In this document: piece after piece, positions 25,357-41,605 of the stretch
Numbering within the stretch: position 1 is the stretch's first letter
Layout: the number at the start of each line of letters is the position of its first letter
Assembly: GCA_002205965.3 (NCBI GenBank)
Contig: NADL03000001.1
Location: 868,001 to 932,000, forward strand
Direction of reading: 5' to 3'
Source: Kappaphycus alvarezii
Taxonomy: Eukaryota > Rhodophyta > Florideophyceae > Gigartinales > Solieriaceae
DNA: 64,000 bases
Notes under the pieces: generated by a model
The model's input: only the letters and a program-made list of their open reading frames with translations
The model's database searches: none
Told to the model about the DNA's origin: nothing
Position numbers and translations under genes: made by a program

Positions 25357-28300
25357 TTAGTTTGGATCACTGCTTTTTTTTTCTTTTGAGAAGGCTCGTA
25401 GGTTTTTTTTGCGGGTTTTGACCACTTCATTACGACCCTGCCTTCTCCGTTCATTTACTGTCTTCGGCGGTGCCGGCCTCAGGCGCAGTGTCCTGACGTT
25501 TACCGCAGCGTTCGTTCGCGCTTCCGAGCGTGTGCCGCCGCTGCTTGCTCGCTGATGCGCTTCCCTGGTCTTTGTTTGCAGTTCTAACAGCAAGCGTTGC
25601 ACCTGTTTCTCATCCTCTGTTTAATGTTGGATCAAGCAAATACGTTGGCTAGCCTAACAATCGATGCAGATTTGCGCACCTGCCGCATGTCCGCTTCGCT
25701 TAATTTGAAATGGTGCGACATTAGCGTGGATGCGGAATGATCTCCGAACTGGCATCTTGGTGAGCAGCTCCTGGCTGTCCTGCATATGTCCTCTGGGAAT
25801 CCAGCGCGTGCCGCAGTATGGATTCCGTAGCTAGTTTCACTTAATGTTCCGGCTCGCACCTTGTATGTAAAACTTCCTTGACGCAGGAGGCATAGAAGGA
25901 TTTCTTGCTTGCCGCTCATTTGAGGCGCCTGCGGCCCTGTTTCAAGATGGACAGCGGTTATTAAGGGATTCACTGTTTGCTAGTGCACCAAGTCAAGAAA
26001 GTGTGTGGTTGAAGAGAGTAAGAACATTCGGGCGCGAACTCAAGTACTCCGCAACTGCATAGGGCAATAGAGAAGCCGTCCAGAGTGGATGTAGATCTTC
26101 CCAGTTCGTCGATAAGAACAAGGGTGTGAGGAGGAATAGGAGAGGAGCTGCTCTCACTTCGCCCTGGTGCTCTGGACTGATGCCCCACGTCTTCATGCCC
26201 ATTCACGCCGTGAATAATCGCTGCGATATCCGACATCTCTTGGGAGAAGTCGGATTGCTGCCTAGTGACATCCCCAGCTCTGGTAAAACGAGTAGCTAGC
26301 CTTCGAAGCAGCCGCACCGATGCAAATTTCGCTGGTACCATACATCCTGTGTGCGCCATGATAGTCATCAGACCAACCATTCGAATGTACGTTGACTTCC
26401 CGGCCTCGTTTCGTCCGGTTATGATGTGTAAACAAGATGTGTCATCCAGGAAAACATTGTTCGGGACTGTGTCGTGTGGCTTCAAGCTTAACAAAGTGGG
26501 ATGATATCTTGTAATGCAATGGGGCCGGACGCTGTTAACTTTGGCCGTTCTGTCTGTGCGTGGCAAACTGACGAGTATGATACGAACGATGTAAGCATAT
26601 CTAGAACTGCAATGCTGTCGCAAAGGCGGTGTAACGCAGTGAAGACTTCAGCTCTGAAAATAACGGTCAGGAGCGAAGCCAGTTCGAATTCTTGTAACCG
26701 CCAGATATCTTGCAAGGAGTCATGGAAGCGAGCATTGAGCTGAGCCAACTCTGTTGTAGAGAATCTATGCACCTTTTTGCCTTCATCAATCTGAACAAAC
26801 TCATCCGGAAAGTCTTTCGTGTCAAGAACTTTTGCCGGGATTGTAAGATGATAACCTCTCTTGGCTTGCATGCAAAGATTGAGCTTGGGTAAATGGTACT
26901 TGGTCCTCAATTCGTTGGTTAAAGTATTCATATCTTCTACATTTTCGCTCAGAGTTTTCCGAGAGACATCGAGGCGCCCTTTACATATGAAACAGTGCGA
27001 TCATCAATAAGTAGAGACAGGGTAAGTGCATCTCACGTAGTAGAGATTATTGTCAGTGGATTCATAAAGCCAGGTTTCAGAAAGTCTCTTTTGAACTTTC
27101 GTTTTCAACATGACGATTACGTGAGAAAAGAATGTTGAACAAACCGTTACGACCAAAACCATGGGCACCCTGCATGCGCATCTTTTCGGACTGCTTTGCG
27201 GGCAAGGCCTCCGGTCAATAACCTCGGCAATTTCCTTTTGCACCTGCGCAAATGCGGCGCTGCGCATGCTCTCTGCTATGGCCTTGAGAAGTGACGACTG
27301 ACATTCTCGAATAGTTTCCAGAAGTGCAGGTATTGTCTCAATTGCGGCCTTGACATTCAACACATCTTGGATCAATCGATGGAGGGTGGTGAGGAGAAGA
27401 AGAATTTTTTGTTCCTTTCGACCTCCCCTCATCACTATTCTCATCAGAGTCCAGTCATCACTATCTTCCTTTGAACCACTTTTTGTCCCTTGAGATTCCG
27501 CCCGAGATTGCCCTATCGATCTTAGTCTTGCATTCTCCTTGCTCATTAAGGATGCAATTGTACTCTCTAAATCTGGAAACCTCCTTAGAGCACCGACAGT
27601 TGCGAAATACAATTCCTCCCGTTGCTCAACTCCTCTACTGCGTCCTGTCTCATTAGAATGGTCGACAGTTCCGAACAGGGTTCCAGCAACGCGCGCCGCA
27701 AAAATCGTTTCCCGGACCGAGTCCTCGTCTTATCCATAACCCTTAGCAAACACGCGGTGTCCGTCACTCCTCCAATTCCAGCGCTTGCACGGGAATTGGT
27801 TACAACTTCCAACCCTTCTAGTGCCGACCAATCCAAAAATACAGCGTCGTCATTTGGACGAAGACGAATCACTAAACTTCCCGGTATGAACGAACGCTCA
27901 TCCACATGTTCGACATATCGAATCAGCGCTCCACAAGCTGCTAGCGCAAGATAACAAGTTGATTCGCCCAAATTTGTAAGATTCGGACATGAAACGCTGC
28001 TTAACTTTTCTGCCACCAAGGCGCCGTAGGTCTCATTGAAGTAGGCACGCCCTACAAATGAACGCTGTCATCCTCCCGCGTAATCCGCGCACAATAAACA
28101 AAAACAAACACATCAAGTACTAAGCGTTAGGTACAGCCTTTTTCGCGACCCTGCCTAACACCTTATCTAAAAACCTACCTTGACCTCTTTCAACAAACTA
28201 CACCCCGCAATTGCACGATCCATACTACCCCCGCAGCCCCTACGCTCATCACAATATCAACCGGGGCGAATACACACAGCGCCGTGAGCAGGGTGGCAAA

Positions 28301-29898: not shown

Positions 29899-30233
29899 TG
29901 TTAGTGACGTGTCCACTGGATCGTGATCTGCCGGTCTGACTGTCAAGTTCTTATCGTCCGCACCGTCGTCCGCTTTGTGCTGCACGCAAACACCCCTAAT
30001 TTATAAGGTTGCATTGCAGATCTGGGTCTCTCTCCACCAATCAGCGACCCTCCGCTGACCTGGTAGTTCCGCATATATCCTCACCACCCTTCACTAGAAG
30101 GGGAGGACGACAGGGAGTTGAGTAAAAGTAATTGTTTTCTTTGTTATTCATCCTAGGTAAGCCGGTCGGCCTTGCTCTCTCCATCTAAGCTACTCTATTC
30201 AGTCACCCCCCCAACTCTCTTCCTACCTCTACC

Positions 30234-30679
30234 TTCAATCTGTTGGTCTGGCTAAGAGGAAGAAGCTTGTTTTGTGTTGCGATGACTTTATTGTCTTGAT
30301 ACGATCTCTTTCCTGGAACTCTTATACAGTTCACGAGCATGCCAGTTTAGCAGTGCGCAATTGCAGGAATTATTGCCAAACTTTGTTTTATCAACCGCAA
30401 GGGTCTGCTTTCTGCGCAATGAGATTGAACACACATATAGATCCCTATATTACACAAAGAAATACTCGCATATGCGACCGCATATGCATACAACAACATA
30501 CAACATTATGTAAACGCATGAACGTGTAGCCCACTTGGATTGATTACGTGATACTTATGAAATGTCTCATCACGTGTCTGACAATATGTTATCTCACGTA
30601 ACTTCACTACTTGTCTAAATGAAATAGACCTAAACAACTTGTGTCTTCCACGCTGGACAGCAATGTTACCTCAACACCG
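30234..30679. repeat. 445-bp block present in 5' LTR but absent from 3' LTR
   Basis: The LTRs align up to CTACCTCTACC and resume at TCTTCCACAA. Between these points the 5' LTR has about 445 bp and the 3' LTR only about five. Whether this is an insertion in one LTR or a deletion from the other cannot be told; no clear terminal repeats were seen. The block has CACGTG-like boxes near 30574 and repeated CATATGC words. Confidence 0.65.
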
Positions 30680-30746
30680 TCTTCCACAACCATCGTCTAA
30701 AACATTTCCATCAGTGTGCTTTGTTCCAAACACTAGATTGTACTAG

Positions 30747-33541
30747 TGTCCAAAGGACAAGCAAATGTGCTCATATGAGTACAGTAATGTATTCATATGA
30801 GTACAAATGATTTCAAATTACCTAGATTTTTTATTAAAATTATATACTGGCACGCTGAATCCCTGAAAAATAACTTCCCCTAACTATAAAAGAAGTAGTT
30901 TCATCCTCATTCACAACAACCGCTGTGGCCTAATGGGCTTCAAGTAAAGAATGAACAAAGAAATCGTGAGTCCGACTCGCTGCGCTCCACAGGAGGGCAA
31001 AAACTTCCTTCAGGAAGGTCGACATTTCTGCGACAGCTGCTACCTCAGTTTGCCTTAGCGCGCCCACTTGAACATGAGCAGAGGGGTTAATTCACTGATC
31101 ACTCATAAAGGGGAATAACGCCATAGGTAAGTATGCTAATTCCGCAAGTCGAACGACGCGAATCAGAAATGTAGGCGGCTATAGTCAAGGACTCAATTTT
31201 TTTCATTTTTACTCATTCAACCTACATAAAATGTAAGCGTAGACAAGTAAACATCACTATAGAGTAGTATAAAGCATCTTCTAATTATGACAGAAGTGGA
31301 CATCGCGTAAGTGATTTTGAAAGCAGTTACGTCCTGTCTCTGAATGGCATATCCAAACCTCTTTGTTCAGTTTCAGGCACTCAGAGCAGAGAAATTTGGA
31401 CTTCTTGTCAGATTTGCAAATTTTGCATCTGCTTTGAAACGCCGCTTTCGTTGGGGCCCCATTCTCCTTTGCGCCTTTTCACTGTGGGCACCAGGTGGAT
31501 TCCAGTACCGCAGGCCAATGAGGGAACAGAATCCTCTGGAACGTCAATGTCAGATCTGCGGAGGCCAATAGCATCAAATGAATTGTCAATGAGTTGCTCT
31601 GCAAGTTTTGCATAAAAATCTTTTTGAGACATGCAATTTCTTGCACCCATCAAACCCTTGTATAGCAGCCATGAGTCAACGATGCAAATTGCAAGCAAAG
31701 ATGTATTAACCCTCAACGACCAATCATTGACTTCGAATTTCTTCTCCAATCCAAGTCATCCTGTCTGCATCTGTTATGCCTGTCAATCTGGGAGCACGTT
31801 TGATAATATGTGCTGACAACCGCTGGAACTGGAATTTCCATTTCCACAAGTAGCGTTTCATTACCAGCAGATCTCCAACGAGACCTTCTGATAGGCTCTG
31901 ACGGAAGTGTTGTACCGGAGGTGCTGACAAAGTATCTTCTGTCTCTATCCATCCACAGAACGGCCATCATAGAAGGGTGGCTTTCCGTCCTCGGACTTAC
32001 CATACAGATATGATCTCCGCGCCTGAAAGTTCCAGCCCTGACAAAAATGACATAGGAAACTGCCTTGTCGCATTCTTGACGACACCTGTAAACCTCAGTC
32101 CATATTCAAAAAGCGCATTTGCTGTGGCCACAGAAGCAAATGCAGAGTCTGCACAGACAAGTCGATTTGAATGAAACCAAGGCTCTGTAAGGCGAAGAAC
32201 AATAGCAGTACCATGAGGGAAATTTGACTCGTAACGCCGATTACTGCTGTCAGATGCTGACAAAACAATCTCCAAATTCAATACAATGCCACTGACACCG
32301 CAGCACGCAGTCTTGATCTCACATCCGTTTTCAGGCTTACGGTCAATGGCGACATAGTGCGGTAGTCCTTCTGACATCCAATCCCCCCCATTCCGTACCA
32401 GCGTGACATGCTTTCATCCACGCAAATTCTCTCCGATGGCGAAAAACTTGACCTCCTATGCCGTTTTATGGCCTCCACGAATCCGCTGACCAAAGACCAT
32501 CTTCTGTCAGTGCTTTCAGTTTCAGTGTAGCGGCTGAATGTAATACATGAAACCAGTGCTTCGAAACGGTTCCTCGAAATTATTTTTCCAAAAGCCGCCA
32601 ATGGAATGTATTTGGATGTAGACTGTGTACTCCAAAGTGACCTTCTGTTTGTAAACTCGAATCTGCATAGCAATATGAGAATTCCAAAAAACTTTAGAAT
32701 TTCACCAGCTGTTGTACGCATGTGCCCACCATTAGCGAGTTTCCGGTTTGTAAGTTCGGTAATTGTGGAAAGGTGTTCGACGGGAAACATGCAAAGGAAA
32801 AAATCATACGGGTCTTCTCATACTCGGTATGACCTTGTATGTACGTGTTCCCTGCTGGACCAATTACCTTCCATGGCCGATATGCCGTTGATCCATTCAA
32901 CGGTAATACTACCTCCTGATTGGTCCAAATTTTTCCATGCACTTCTTTGCATACCCCTCCTACTCCGGCCATCCCATTGGCTTCTTCTCGAGGTTCTTCA
33001 ACAGAAGGTTGACGATTCGGTAGCTCGACCTCAGCAGCAGTTGTCTCCATTTCATTGGACGTTGCTAGGCCACCTTCAGATGCTTCTCCTGGCTTGATGT
33101 TGACGAGTTTCAAGCTGACGCGCTTTGTCTGTCCTGAATGGACCAGTCTGCGGTGACCGAAGTCTGACGTCTTCCGGTAGATGTGTCAACTTCGATGCTG
33201 ACCACGGTTCCGTTGACGCGCTTACTTCTCCAAAGGGAACCGAATAGTCGCTTACACTCAGCCGCTGACGTGACAAGGGTTGCGCGAGTGTTGACAAGGT
33301 TTCCGGGCTGTTGACGGGGGTCATTTGGATTCGTCATTTTTGGTTAAATTTTTCGATGTTGACAAACTTGTTGTGTGTTCGAATGAACAGTTGAGGAGTA
33401 AACTCCGAAGTTTTGCACGGTTGACTACCTAAGGGTGCTATTAGATATGGTGAAAAGCTAATGGTGTCATTATGTTAATTTTTTTATAAAATCTAGCCGT
33501 TAGAAATATGGACTCATATGAGTACAATTGTCCTCTGGACA
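30747..33541 (-). mobile_element. piggyBac-type DNA transposon, complete-looking, CTAG target duplication
   Basis: The ends are 14-bp terminal inverted repeats, TGTCCAAAGGACAA at 30747-30760 and its complement with one mismatch at 33528-33541. Just inside lie subterminal CTCATATGAGTAC repeats, at 30770 and 30792 on one side and near 33512 on the other. CTAG flanks both sides (30743-30746 and 33542-33545) and occurs once at the matching site of the uninterrupted 3' LTR (near 40269), which fixes the insertion. The single gene inside occupies most of the 2.8 kb. The family normally duplicates TTAA, so CTAG is unusual. Eight bases (ACTAGTGT) are shared by both flanks, but only the 4-bp reading gives flush inverted repeats. 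Confidence 0.88.
31281..33337 (-). CDS. piggyBac transposase with C-terminal Cys-rich domain
   Basis: Reads from ATG 33337 to TAG at 31283-31281. The N-terminal region holds CKRLFGSLWRSKRVNGTVVS and TSTGRRQTSVTADWSI, a chromodomain-like opening, then an acidic linker. The DDE_Tnp_1_7 core follows: LTNRKLANGGHMRTTAGEIL, FGILILLCRFEFTNRR, SRNRFEALVSCITF. Catalytic Asp positions are ICVDESMSRWYG, LVCADSAFASVATANAL and CIVDSWLLYKG. The end is a Cys-rich zinc-binding domain, CKICKSDKKSKFLCSECLKL with WICHSETGRNCF, which binds the terminal repeats in this family. Length with frame changes read across is about 650 residues, near the family norm of about 600. The frame changes at a few places, so activity is doubtful unless those are assembly indels. 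It lies antisense to the Copia element it sits in. Confidence 0.85.
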
Positions 33542-36500
33542 CTAGTGTGCAGAGTACTCCCGTGCCACCTAGAGTACAACGACAATCCAGATTTAGTGCT
33601 TTTGAAGTCACTGCTGTTTTTGATCATGTCAGGTGTACCGCAAAAATGAGCTCAACTGCAAGAAAATTATGAACTTTTGCTTAGACGCGTTAGTTATGTT
33701 AAAATATACCATGGTTTTTCTAAAGAGATCCTTTCTTTTTCCGCTGCTGTTTTAGAGATGTACCGGATAAGTTCGGATGCACCGACGCTACTAGGATTGC
33801 TGACATAGGTTGAGGAGCTAATAAGATCTATGCTAACCTCACCAAGCGAGGTATACAGTAAATATATCTTCAAAAGGCCTTTATTTACTGTGGCAACTTT
33901 GCACGACTTCATGTTCTTATATGGTTGCAATGGTGTTCCTTCAGATGTTCTTGACCATTTGGGCCTTTCTCAGGGAGGTAAGTATAATCGGAGTGTGAAA
34001 ACACACACCTGGCTAGTTACAATGTCACGCTGTGACGATAAAACGATTAAGAATGTGTTGAAGGCATAAAATGAAAGTAGAAATGCGATCACCTCTACAC
34101 TATTCCATCGAGCCGTGTTAACAGCCAACAGGATCAATCTGCACAACGAGCAACTCCTGTGATTTACCCCTGCGTAATAGAAGATGCTTCTGCGCCCGTC
34201 AATGGTGCCCAAGAATCTGAACTTGGTCCTCGTGAAACTTCGGATTTTACAGCAAAACAAGATGCGAATGTCTCGAGAAAAGCAACGAATGTATTTCAAT
34301 TATTTCAAGGGTGGAAAGTTCTCTGCGGACATCCCGCAGTCTATAGATTTACTATCAGGGATTACAACGTTTGTGCTAGACAGCACAATCTTACTCCTCG
34401 GCAGAAGGCTGAATTTTTCGCTAACGCTCTGGCAGACCCCGCTTGAACCTTCTTCTTTAATAATGCAAGAGACAATATGACCTTTGCAGAAATGGCGAAC
34501 ATGATGATAGAAGAGCACAATAGCGATTCACGGCAATTGAAAGTACAAAAGATGCTAGAAACACTTTGTATTGACAAGCAAATGTCTGAAAATGGAATAA
34601 TTAGCCACTCTATGGTTTGAAAAAGTTAGTGGATATCATTGACCGATTGACGCCGCAGTGCCAGCCTCATTTCTGTTCGGATGCGAACAAAATCAACTAC
34701 CTACGCAAATCCGTGTTAAGTTTTTCGTGTGCTCTAATACCTATTGGAAATGTCATTACCGCCAATTACTCTTTTCACAGTTTTGTCACAGCTCTCTGTG
34801 AACATCTGCAGCTCAAGAATGGAGTGTCTTCATTCGGAAGTGACTCTGTTATCGCTAGCGCTAACGGTACTTGTGTCAATAGTACATATCACCAATACTA
34901 TGGCCGACATTCCAAATCCGTCAAGAAGCATAGGAATCCCTCAAACCGGTCCTCGTACTAAACTGGACCTCCAGAAATGGAGGGAGAAACCTCACCTTTG
35001 AGGAGTGTAGACAAAAAGGGATTTGTATTCGTTGCGAAGAAAAGTGGAGCCCCGGCCACCGATGGAAGCCAGGAGCTTTCAGAGCTCAGATTCGAAACCG
35101 CATTAAGAACGGACAGTCCGCTATCTATATAGTGGACGAGATGATATCAGGAATGGAGGGAGAAATCCAAAGCGAAGTAGGCATGACAGGTGAGCTCCTG
35201 GGTCAGTCGCTCCGATCACCAATTCAAACCACGCTGCTATTCCCTCTGAGCTTGAAATACTCGATCAACTCTCCTTTAACAACAACGTTTATTATAGCGA
35301 GTTAGATAAAGCAGCTGATAAGAACTGATTCCTTTCCCATTTTGGCGATACTATCACACAGAAACCTGATGAGTGTGTCACTCAGCCCGATATTGACAAG
35401 GATTTTCAGAAAGGCGTCGGCGAGGACAGCCATTAGATCGACGCCCTGACAGATGTCCCCGTGCCCATAGGAGCACGAACCCAAAGCAGAAAGACTATAT
35501 CAATATTAACGTATCTCACGTGTATATGTCAAGGCTGCATAAAGAGAATAGGTTGTCAAGAATGGAAAATATTAAGTGTCCTAAGTTCCTCGTTGATCCT
35601 GGATCACCAAAGTTGTGTATTGGAAAGAAAGAAGTAAGCAGGATCTTCTTCGAGATAGGTAGAAGAGTAACTGTGCTATCTCCATCGAGACACAGATTTT
35701 TATTCGCGGAAACTTCTTTCAGATCTCTGGAAGGATTAAACTACACCGATACACCCCAACAGGATTACCGCCAATCGAAGTTTGGATGGATGTCGTCCGT
35801 GCAGATGTACCCGCAATACTAGTGTTAAACGTATTAGAAACAGAATTGCTAGTGGCTGACACCGTATTTAACAGGCTAGTTAAGCGCAAAAGCATGAAGG
35901 AGGCAGGAAAACCGGACGATTACATCGAAGTGTGGTTAGTGCCACGATATTGCTCGAAAAGCATGCCTACCTATGCCCTAATGGACTTTACAACCCCCTT
36001 TTTCTTTACCTGATCTCAGTTGACGACATTACATAAGCTGTACTTTCATCCCTTTGCCGAAAAACGTTTCAACCTTTTGAAGCGGGCTGGACCAGAAAAT
36101 GCTACAGCTGAAACCTTCAAAAATCTCCAGGGTATATTGAATCGTTCTGACGCATGTCATAGAACCAAATTGGCTCCAAAAGGTTTCGAGTTTCCTTTGG
36201 GGTAGAGAATGTTCGATTTAACGAGAGAACTATCTTAGACGTACTCAAAATTGACGGAAACAAAGTTCTTCACATTGTCTACGAAGGAAAGAGATTTAGT
36301 GCTGCCCGTTTCCCTTTCAACATTTCAAGTGAGTCGCTTTGGTCTACTATATTAGAGTTCTGGGTTTTCATCTATAAAGAATTTCCTAACCGAATTCTGG
36401 TCGATTGAGGCAGTAACTTTGGACCTCTTTTCGTCCACCTAGGTGCTTTATCGAATGTGATGTTCAAAAAGCAGGTATTGAAGCACACTATAGCCTCGGT

Positions 36501-39860: not shown

Positions 39861-40312
39861 TGTTAGAGATACGAGTCCAGTGGATCGTGATCTGCAGGCC
39901 TGACTGTCAAGTACTTATCGTCCGCACCGTTGTCCGCTTGCTGCATGCAAACACCCCTAATTTTAGCCAAAACATAATGTTGCATTGCTGAATCTTTCTC
40001 CACCAGTCACCGAAGATTCCGCTGACCTGGTGGTTCCGCATATATCCTTACCACCCTTCCACTAGAAGGGAGGACGACAAGGAGTTGGGTAAAAGTAATT
40101 GTTTGCTTTGTTACTCATCCTAGGTAAGGAGGTCGGCCTTGTTCTCTCTATCTAAGCTACTCCATTCAGTTACCCTCCTAACTCTCTTCCTACCTCTACC
40201 TGCCATCTTCCACAAACCCTCGCCTAAAACCTTTCAACCAGTGTACTCTGTTACACATACCAGATTGTACTAGTGTGCAAAGCACTCCAGTGCCACCGAG
40301 AGTACAATGACA
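39861..40312 (+). repeat. 3' LTR of the Copia fossil
   Basis: Starts TGTTAGAGATACG and ends GTACAATGACA. Contains the uninterrupted form (ATTGTACTAGTGTGC near 40264) of the site occupied by piggyBac in the 5' LTR. 452 bp long. Confidence 0.85.
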
Positions 40313-40389: not shown

Positions 40390-41605
40390 AGGAGAGTCAA
40401 ACCCGCCTGAAAGTATACGACAGTAAGTAACTATCTTTGATTGCTGCCAAAAAACGGCATATATAAGGGTAATTAAGGCCCCAATCTCCTTCTCTACATT
40501 TCGCACAGTCCAGTAGCACTCAACAATGCCAAGAGAAACGCAATTTTCCGAGCTGGAGCGCGGAAAAATTATTGCGTACAAAGAAGAAGGCCTCACTATT
40601 TCAGCGATCTCAAAGAAGGTGGATAGAAGTAGGGATGCTGTGAAAAGGTTCTTGGATAAACGACACAGCTATGAAGAGGACCAAAAATCCGGTAGGCCAC
40701 GCAAAATTTCCGAAAAAGCAGAGAGAAGGCTGATGCAGGCAGCGGAGACAAAACAACGAGCGAAATCAGGGATGAGCTCAGTTTGGACCTATCGGTGTCC
40801 AGGACCCGCCGCTATCTAAGCAACGATGCTAATATTCGTTTCGAAAAAGTACAGAGCGCCCGTCTCGCACTAACGCTCACAAAATTGCTCGAGTTCGATG
40901 GGCAAAAGACGACGTCACACGGGACTTGAAAAAATGGTCCAGTGTTGTCTTTTCTGACGGAAAAATGTTTTCTTTGGATAGGAAGGCTGTATGCACAGCT
41001 ACTGGAATTATCTGAGGCGTGATACTGAGCTTCTAACACGTCTCCAGCAAAGAAGGGCTAGTATTATGGTTCATGGGGCGTTTTCTAGTGATTTTATGTG
41101 GGATTTGTATGTTTTTACAGGACGAAAGACTTTAAAAAGTTATGTTAGGGTAGTGGAAGAGGCATTTTTACCGAAAGCAGACGATTGTATGCAAACTACG
41201 TGGATTTATCCGCAATAAAGTGCTACAATTCATATGAGCAAGAAATCGATGGACTGGTTTTCGGCCGAAGGATTACGTTTAAGGACGTGGTCAGATCGCT
41301 GGCCTGATCTAATCACAATCACAAATCTTTGGAGCGTGGGAACGAGGAAGGTTTATGCCAATAAGCGCCACGTTTCTTCCATTTCTGGTCTTAAGGACTG
41401 TGTTTTGAGTAACTAGAAGGAACTACCGCTATCTCTTCCGCAAAAATTAGCGGTGTGTATGCAAAGGCGTTCAATTTAGTTTAATTGTTAAGCAGAGAGG
41501 CCATACGCACTATTAGTTTGGCCTTTCATATGGTTTTAATGCTTCAATTGCTTTGAGATTTAAAAGTGTCGTATACTTTCAGTCGGGGTCATTTCTTTAT
41601 ACTTA
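40390..41605 (+). mobile_element. Tc1/mariner element with terminal inverted repeats
   Basis: CTGAAAGTATACGACA at 40407-40422 is matched by its exact complement at 41567-41582. Similarity extends outward through ACCC(C)G. TA dinucleotides lie near both presumed ends, as expected for Tc1 elements, but the precise borders are uncertain by several bases. It lies 80 bp beyond the Copia 3' LTR. Confidence 0.8.
40526..41416 (+). pseudogene. Tc1/mariner transposase, all domains visible, frames broken
   Basis: The ATG at 40526 opens MPRETQFSELERGKIIAY and the helix-turn-helix EEGLTISAISKKVDRSRDAV. The GRPR-like linker reads KSGRPRKISEKAERRLMQAA. The catalytic part continues in other frames: KWSSVVFSDGKMFSLD (first Asp), then the strand SIMVHGAFSSDFM, then SYVRVVEEAFLPKADD. 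The end reads KSMDWFSAEGLRLRTWSDRW and PDLITITNLWSVGTRKVYAN, which corresponds to the PDLNPIENLWG motif. Total length of about 300 codons matches the family. Frame changes near 40800 and 41220 and stops in between leave it inactive in this sequence. The coding strand reads outward from the left inverted repeat, in normal orientation for Tc1. Confidence 0.8.

Follow-up and report, generated by a model that had tools for sequence, protein, structure and literature searches.

The window, a stretch of 64,000 nucleotides of Kappaphycus alvarezii DNA (contig NADL03000001.1, positions 868,001 to 932,000), contains a transposon that has inserted into an old LTR retrotransposon, within its 5' LTR. The LTRs of this target, which the initial annotation had called a Copia fossil, were recognised through the direct repeats D1-D3, and no Pfam hits were obtained in two of its ORFs. 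Table 1 shows the features of the locus, together with insertions found elsewhere in the genome. The left junction of the transposon reads ...ATTGTA CTAG followed by the element end TGTCCAAAGGACAA..., and the right junction reads ...TTGTCCTCTGGACA followed by CTAG TGTGCAG.... Both flanks were CTAG, as the initial annotation had claimed for a piggyBac element with a CTAG duplication. Two of the transposase pieces matched DDE_Tnp_1_7, the piggyBac transposase domain. The flush 14-bp inverted repeats starting TGTCC that it had described were also found; since one mismatch separates the two repeats, the ends are flush, not perfect. The window copy is frame-broken, its transposase ORF pieces being spread over different frames. 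Another insert, some 440 bp long (30242-30682), is present in the 5' LTR but missing in the 3' LTR; it has TACCTC-like words at both borders.

Table 1. Features of the window (positions in the window) and insertions on other contigs (contig or contig:position)
Feature	Position	Strand	Remark
5' LTR of the target LTR retrotransposon, element inside	29899..33584	+	TG...CA bounds by eye
Left target-site duplication CTAG	30743..30746	.	flank of the element
CTAG-targeting piggyBac-superfamily element	30747..33541	- (transposase strand)	2795 bp
Left terminal inverted repeat TGTCCAAAGGACAA	30747..30760	+	14 bp
Subterminal palindrome TCATATGA	30771..30778	.	left end of the element
Subterminal palindrome TCATATGA	30793..30800	.	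left end of the element
C-terminal transposase fragment	31408..31749	-	alone without Pfam hit
Transposase fragment	31997..32377	-	DDE_Tnp_1_7 profile positions 145-247, E 2.6e-12
Transposase fragment	32278..32790	-	DDE_Tnp_1_7 profile positions 9-139, E 1.3e-20
N-terminal transposase fragment	32694..33113	-	alone without Pfam hit
Subterminal palindrome TCATATGA	33514..33521	.	right end of the element
Right terminal inverted repeat TGTCCAGAGGACAA (minus-strand reading)	33528..33541	-	13/14 identical to left
Right target-site duplication CTAG	33542..33545	.	flank of the element
3' LTR with empty site	39861..40312	+	bounds by eye
Empty target CTAG, 3' LTR	40270..40273	.	single CTAG
Short right-end/right-end family 2 elements	C15:133317, C48:414604, C715:542268, C754:115143, C758:277832		spacing 432-437
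Long right-end/right-end family 2 element	C728:690986		spacing 1812
TA pairs of the L078/L079 lineage	C681, C836, C675, C450, C658		CTA/TAT; TTA/TAT; CTA/TAG; CTA/TAG; CTA/TAC

The genome searched for other copies was the window's own (336 Mb, 884 contigs). We found 105 stretches matching the window element (family 1), with 40 of 595 candidates scored; nearly all scored copies were 96-99% identical, and one was about 81% identical. Thirty-nine regions (L009-L047) were retrieved, and in 35 of them both ends could be paired: 29 CTAG/CTAG, 1 TTAG/TTAG and 5 unequal. Left out were L023 (5494 bp, in which ends from different copies were mis-paired) and L032, L045 and L046, each with one end missing. 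Exact-end patterns were also run genome-wide, with a non-T demanded at one outer flank position, a constraint that thins the sample and leaves the four target bases untouched. CTAG preceded 53 of the 76 exact left ends listed for family 1 and came after 80 of the 92 exact right ends listed, while the reversed control pattern for these ends gave zero matches genome-wide. Outside CTAG, no base attained half of the listed copies, the pattern-constrained position excepted. From the window alone longer duplications can be drawn, up to ACTAGTGT, as had been pointed out; the tables from other copies settled the duplication as CTAG because no base beyond it reached half. There was a slight excess of A ahead of CTAG and of T behind it, which may be partly due to insertion beside other elements of the CTAG kind, since these start with TGTC. 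CTAG elements were indeed seen in the CTAG adjoining the ends of other CTAG elements (L010, L011, L014 and others).

Some of the family 1 flanks (CTAGTGTCTATCCGACC) turned out to be the ends of a related second family. Locus L081 holds this family whole, reading CTAG, TGTCTATCC...AATAGACA, CTAG, and the transposases of the two CTAG families are 51-52% identical. The left ends of the second family gave 261 matches, with CTAG at 87 of 100 listed; the reversed control for the left pattern matched 8, so a few left ends may be chance. The left-end list includes clusters of seven ends each at C113 and C466, all CTAG, and the 87 CTAG left ends are therefore not 87 independent sites. For the right ends there were 122 matches (control 0), with CTAG at 77 of 100 listed. 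Among six family 2 pairs, five were CTAG/CTAG and one was ATAG/ATAG (C455). Six more family 2 elements had a right-type end at both borders, five of them with CTAG/CTAG and one with CTAG/ATAG (C715); the five short ones are probably miniature derivatives.

Tabulating the flanks of other copies, as the initial annotation had proposed, thus showed CTAG dominant at both ends in two families, while TTAA was absent from all 368 listed ends (76+92+100+100). In the window, the background share of 4-mers is 0.20% for CTAG and 0.44% for TTAA. The binomial chance of CTAG at 53/76, 80/92, 87/100 and 77/100 ends is below 1e-120 each, for copies that are not fully independent.

Two other piggyBac lineages were analysed in the same genome. 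The best DDE_Tnp_1_7 scores belong to the lineage of L078 and L079 (loci L078, L079 and L084-L086; contigs C681, C836, C675 and C744), the ends of which are TCCCCTCGTCTGTA. TA was found at the border, by eye, in 19 of 24 ends listed (control 1). Five of six pairs repeat TA with unlike neighbours (Table 1), and the pair at C744 is without TA on one side. This lineage appears to duplicate only TA, not TTAA, so that the target seemingly varies among the piggyBac lineages of this genome. A third lineage (L082, L083) has ends like TTATCCCTTAATTCCC, with TTAA inside the repeat. Its duplication seems to be TA, with one side mutated in L082; since the second Asp is lost in L082, that locus does not encode a working enzyme as read.

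With an invariant CTAG target, sequence alone cannot separate duplication of CTAG from duplication of TA, whereas targets that deviate from CTAG allow the distinction. In three insertions the same deviating word stands on either side of the element: TTAG/TTAG at C699 and C31, and ATAG/ATAG at C455. The 59 pooled family 1 pairs comprised 42 CTAG/CTAG, 2 TTAG/TTAG and 15 unequal pairs. Five regions were retrieved for the partner of a variant end; four gave the partner (C67, C658, C15 and C811, all unequal) and C620 (L087) did not. The 55 pairs not chosen for variant flanks, the window included, were 42 CTAG/CTAG, 2 TTAG/TTAG and 11 unequal. Two of the 59 pairs share flanks with another pair, and the ends paired at C695 and C780 lie more than 4 kb apart and possibly come from different copies. 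Shuffling of the right ends gave a permutation p of 0.009 for the two concordant variants in family 1, and of 0.005 when the picked, shared-flank and over-long pairs were removed. When the six family 2 pairs were added, p was 0.0007 for three concordant variants, and 0.001 once the six further right-end/right-end elements joined. For both families together, p was 0.0004 to 0.001, depending on which pairs were kept.

Transposons that duplicate TA and prefer CTAG were considered as a type. It could be proposed that only TA is duplicated here and that insertion strictly prefers CTAG, in which case the inner G and C would be part of the element ends. One piggyBac lineage of this genome appears to duplicate TA alone, some variants are asymmetric (for example ATAG/CTAG and GTAG/CTAG), and the unlike 4-mers in 11 of the 55 unpicked pairs are, each taken singly, compatible with TA duplication and a CTAG preference. 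However, the concordant variants (TTAG twice, ATAG once) agree at each of the four positions, even at the inner right base that such a scheme assigns to the element. An asymmetric variant is also found on the right with the left intact (C811, CTAG/GTAG), and asymmetric variants strike inner as well as outer bases. We consider duplication of TA alone improbable. The four-base duplication, a 4-bp palindromic target as in the piggyBac superfamily, is well ahead of it, though not beyond doubt, and we read the unequal pairs as the product of later mutation, inner and outer bases having been hit on both sides.

Empty sites bear on a second alternative, that CTAG belongs to the terminal repeat of the element itself, which would insert without target duplication or with a duplication further out. 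CTAG is present in most listed copies and, being palindromic, would look like an inverted repeat at the two ends in any case. The natural empty site with a single CTAG that had been reported in the 3' LTR was seen there, within the sequence ...GATTGTACTAGTGTGCAAAG.... In a search with six joined flanks at once, 40 of 3946 candidates were scored. All 40 spanning matches belonged to the joined flank of L029, the surroundings of which are a repeat; the other five joined flanks had no spanning match among the candidates scored. Six of the 40 repeat loci were read, and each showed ...GTGGCTAGGC... with one CTAG. The empty-site evidence thus amounts to seven readings (six repeats and the window LTR) for two insertion sites, the empty sites read being paralogous sites. 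The single CTAG in these sites, the lack of any duplication outside CTAG in the flank tables and the agreement in pairs of the three variant 4-mers make it very unlikely that CTAG is part of the element. It is scarcely credible that the flanks were once TTAA and have since drifted, or that a few insertions were multiplied by segmental duplication: flanks are shared by two pairs of copies (L013/L015 and L018/L019), but the exact ends of family 1 are bordered by 56 different flank strings on the left and 83 on the right, drift to one same word is hardly expected of copies 98-99% identical, and no listed end has TTAA.

We are confident that the window element is a cut-and-paste transposon of the piggyBac superfamily and that the main integration target of its lineage is CTAG, not TTAA. 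Judged by its transposase sequence, it is a member of this superfamily and not a canonical TTAA element. As far as junction sequences can show, the 4-bp palindromic CTAG is used and duplicated, and the rare TTAG and ATAG insertions duplicate those four bases.

We then analyzed the transposases of related copies. PF13843 (DDE_Tnp_1_7) was matched in L023 (E 1.3e-43) and L081 (E 8.6e-46), and a C-x2-C...C-x2-C...CH...H stretch, a candidate for the C-terminal Cys-rich zinc-binding domain, was seen by eye at the end of both proteins. The DDD triad D268/D346/D447 was aligned in all three CTAG proteins by MAFFT (residue numbers are those of Trichoplusia ni (T. ni) piggyBac, checked against 6x67). 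The identity underlying this alignment is low: family 1 matched piggyBat at E 0.00078, and no hit to T. ni piggyBac was obtained from the family 1 protein at E up to 1. The initial annotation had described the catalytic domain as otherwise normal, which holds for the DDD triad but not for the residues around the target tetranucleotide, where the CTAG proteins differ from TTAA enzymes.

In structures of T. ni piggyBac, the tetranucleotide target is not base-paired, and recognition is of single strands. N440 contacts A(-2), the methyl group of T(-3) sits in a pocket formed by V414, L416 and Y439, and hairpin and target are arranged by the omega loop with R275, Y283 and K290 (PMC7351741). The same account explains the near-strict TTAA by a T0-A3 hydrogen bond that "cannot be satisfied" if the first base is a different one (PMC7351741). 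Among the three aligned CTAG proteins, N440 is replaced by Tyr, V414 by Arg, L416 by Phe and D450 by Asn, while Y439 is kept. The omega-loop region has an eight-residue insertion, and one residue is lost at K290. R275 is Tyr in the CTAG proteins, and is also Tyr in L078 and Asn in L082; since it is replaced in non-CTAG proteins as well, its change says little. N440 and V414 are kept in L078 and L082, from the two other lineages of this genome. Across the retrieved loci and the window, with overlapping loci counted, the CTAG families have the motifs YY...DRHN and RYFVS with a few single-residue variants, and the retrieved loci of the non-CTAG lineages, counted in the same way, carry YN..GG[IV]D..DQ. 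We infer that Arg 414 or Tyr 440 may read the new outer G or C; because many positions differ between the CTAG and other lineages, and R275 has changed in both, no residue is proven causal. The change of target is well shown by the flanks, and the residues named here are a proposal for its cause. The TCATATGA palindromes, which are present in both CTAG families (also at 554 and 576 of L081), might be binding sites of the transposase. Relatives outside this genome were not confirmed in viral contigs (three-protein and core alignments) or in prokaryotic contigs (three-protein alignment), which, with two peptide patterns per scan and a prokaryotic contig set, is weak evidence of their absence.

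The piggyBac superfamily is described as sharing TTAA, the DDD triad and a Cys-rich domain (PMC10954464). The statement in the initial annotation that its transposases are known for TTAA specificity is correct in the main, but other words are used at low rates, including CTAG by T. ni piggyBac. Among 23,417 insertions of T. ni piggyBac in human cells, 23,026 were at TTAA, 110 at CTAA, 100 at TTAG and 9 at CTAG, the first column of the table being taken as piggyBac from its TTAA heading row (PMC3499496). CTAG is therefore within reach of an ordinary enzyme, and what is new here is its status as main target. Like T. ni piggyBac (IFP2) and Myotis piggyBat, the CTAG elements have a DDE_Tnp_1_7 domain, the DDD triad and a duplicated 4-bp palindromic target with TA in the middle. 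Unlike them, they have CTAG as the main word, with TTAA absent from the listed ends, they carry the N440 to Tyr and V414 to Arg replacements and the omega-loop insertion, and they begin with TGTCC instead of CCC. Ends beginning CCC (or CACTA) are given for canonical TTAA piggyBac-like elements (PMC10813416), and the ends found here begin TGTCC or TGTCTATCC. Footprint-free excision is a further trait of the canonical elements; the empty sites read here are paralogous.

Pokey of Daphnia, another member of the superfamily, differs in inserting mainly at TTAA (88%), with about 12% at TTAT, ATAA or CTAA, the middle TA being kept (PMC3849761). Of the Pokey copies 7%, and of the mPok copies 23%, occupy the target site next to another copy (PMC3849761), and insertion beside the CTAG of another element is likewise seen here. 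Non-TTAA piggyBac types have been listed from animal genomes, where the authors speak of probable mutations (PMC10813416); CTAG is missing from the list given there, whereas in this genome CTAG is shared by two families. PiggyMac of Paramecium, a domesticated piggyBac transposase cutting at TA boundaries (PMC8086355), is comparable to the TA lineage of this genome; unlike the CTAG families, it is not a transposon and has no CTAG target. A family with CTAG as its main target was not found in the literature searched, most subscription journals and Repbase being outside its reach. In other articles that contain CTAG, the letters belong to a primer (PMC1939997 and PMC2956540), a Tol2 flank (PMC4818426) or a readthrough word (PMC10085805).

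The DDD transposase would nick at the TGTCC ends, and 4-nt hairpins would form on the flanking CTAG and then open. The 3' ends would join a 4-bp staggered, unpaired CTAG, and excision could be resealed via the CTAG overhangs. Since the middle TA is the same and only the outer pair has changed, a paired outer-base change from T0...A3 to C0...G3 would be the simplest mechanism, which changed residues beside the tetranucleotide might accommodate (Tyr for N440, Arg for V414 and a remodelled omega loop). We put forward tentatively, as a plausible but somewhat doubtful account, that a natural retargeting from TTAA to CTAG took place through this coordinated outer-pair change (T0/A3 to C0/G3) and a few residues (R414, Y440 and the extended omega loop), in a genome with at least two piggyBac targets (CTAG and TA).

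The piggyBac system is widely used for genome engineering. If the account is true, the target choice of piggyBac would be evolvable and perhaps exchangeable, and the view that a non-T base at position 0 is hardly accommodated would be countered. The CTAG lineage may be regarded as nature's experiment, in which comparison of its enzymes with TTAA enzymes points to residues that possibly set the target. For annotation, TTAA is unsafe as a filter for piggyBac elements.

Other features were also observed in the window. Pieces of a MutS-family gene lie on the minus strand at 25970-28019, apparently with introns. The piece at 27585-28019 matches MutS_III (E 2e-14), and the remaining pieces were judged by eye. 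Just outside the 3' LTR, a frame at about 40530-40790 resembles, by eye, the N-terminus of a Tc1/mariner transposase.
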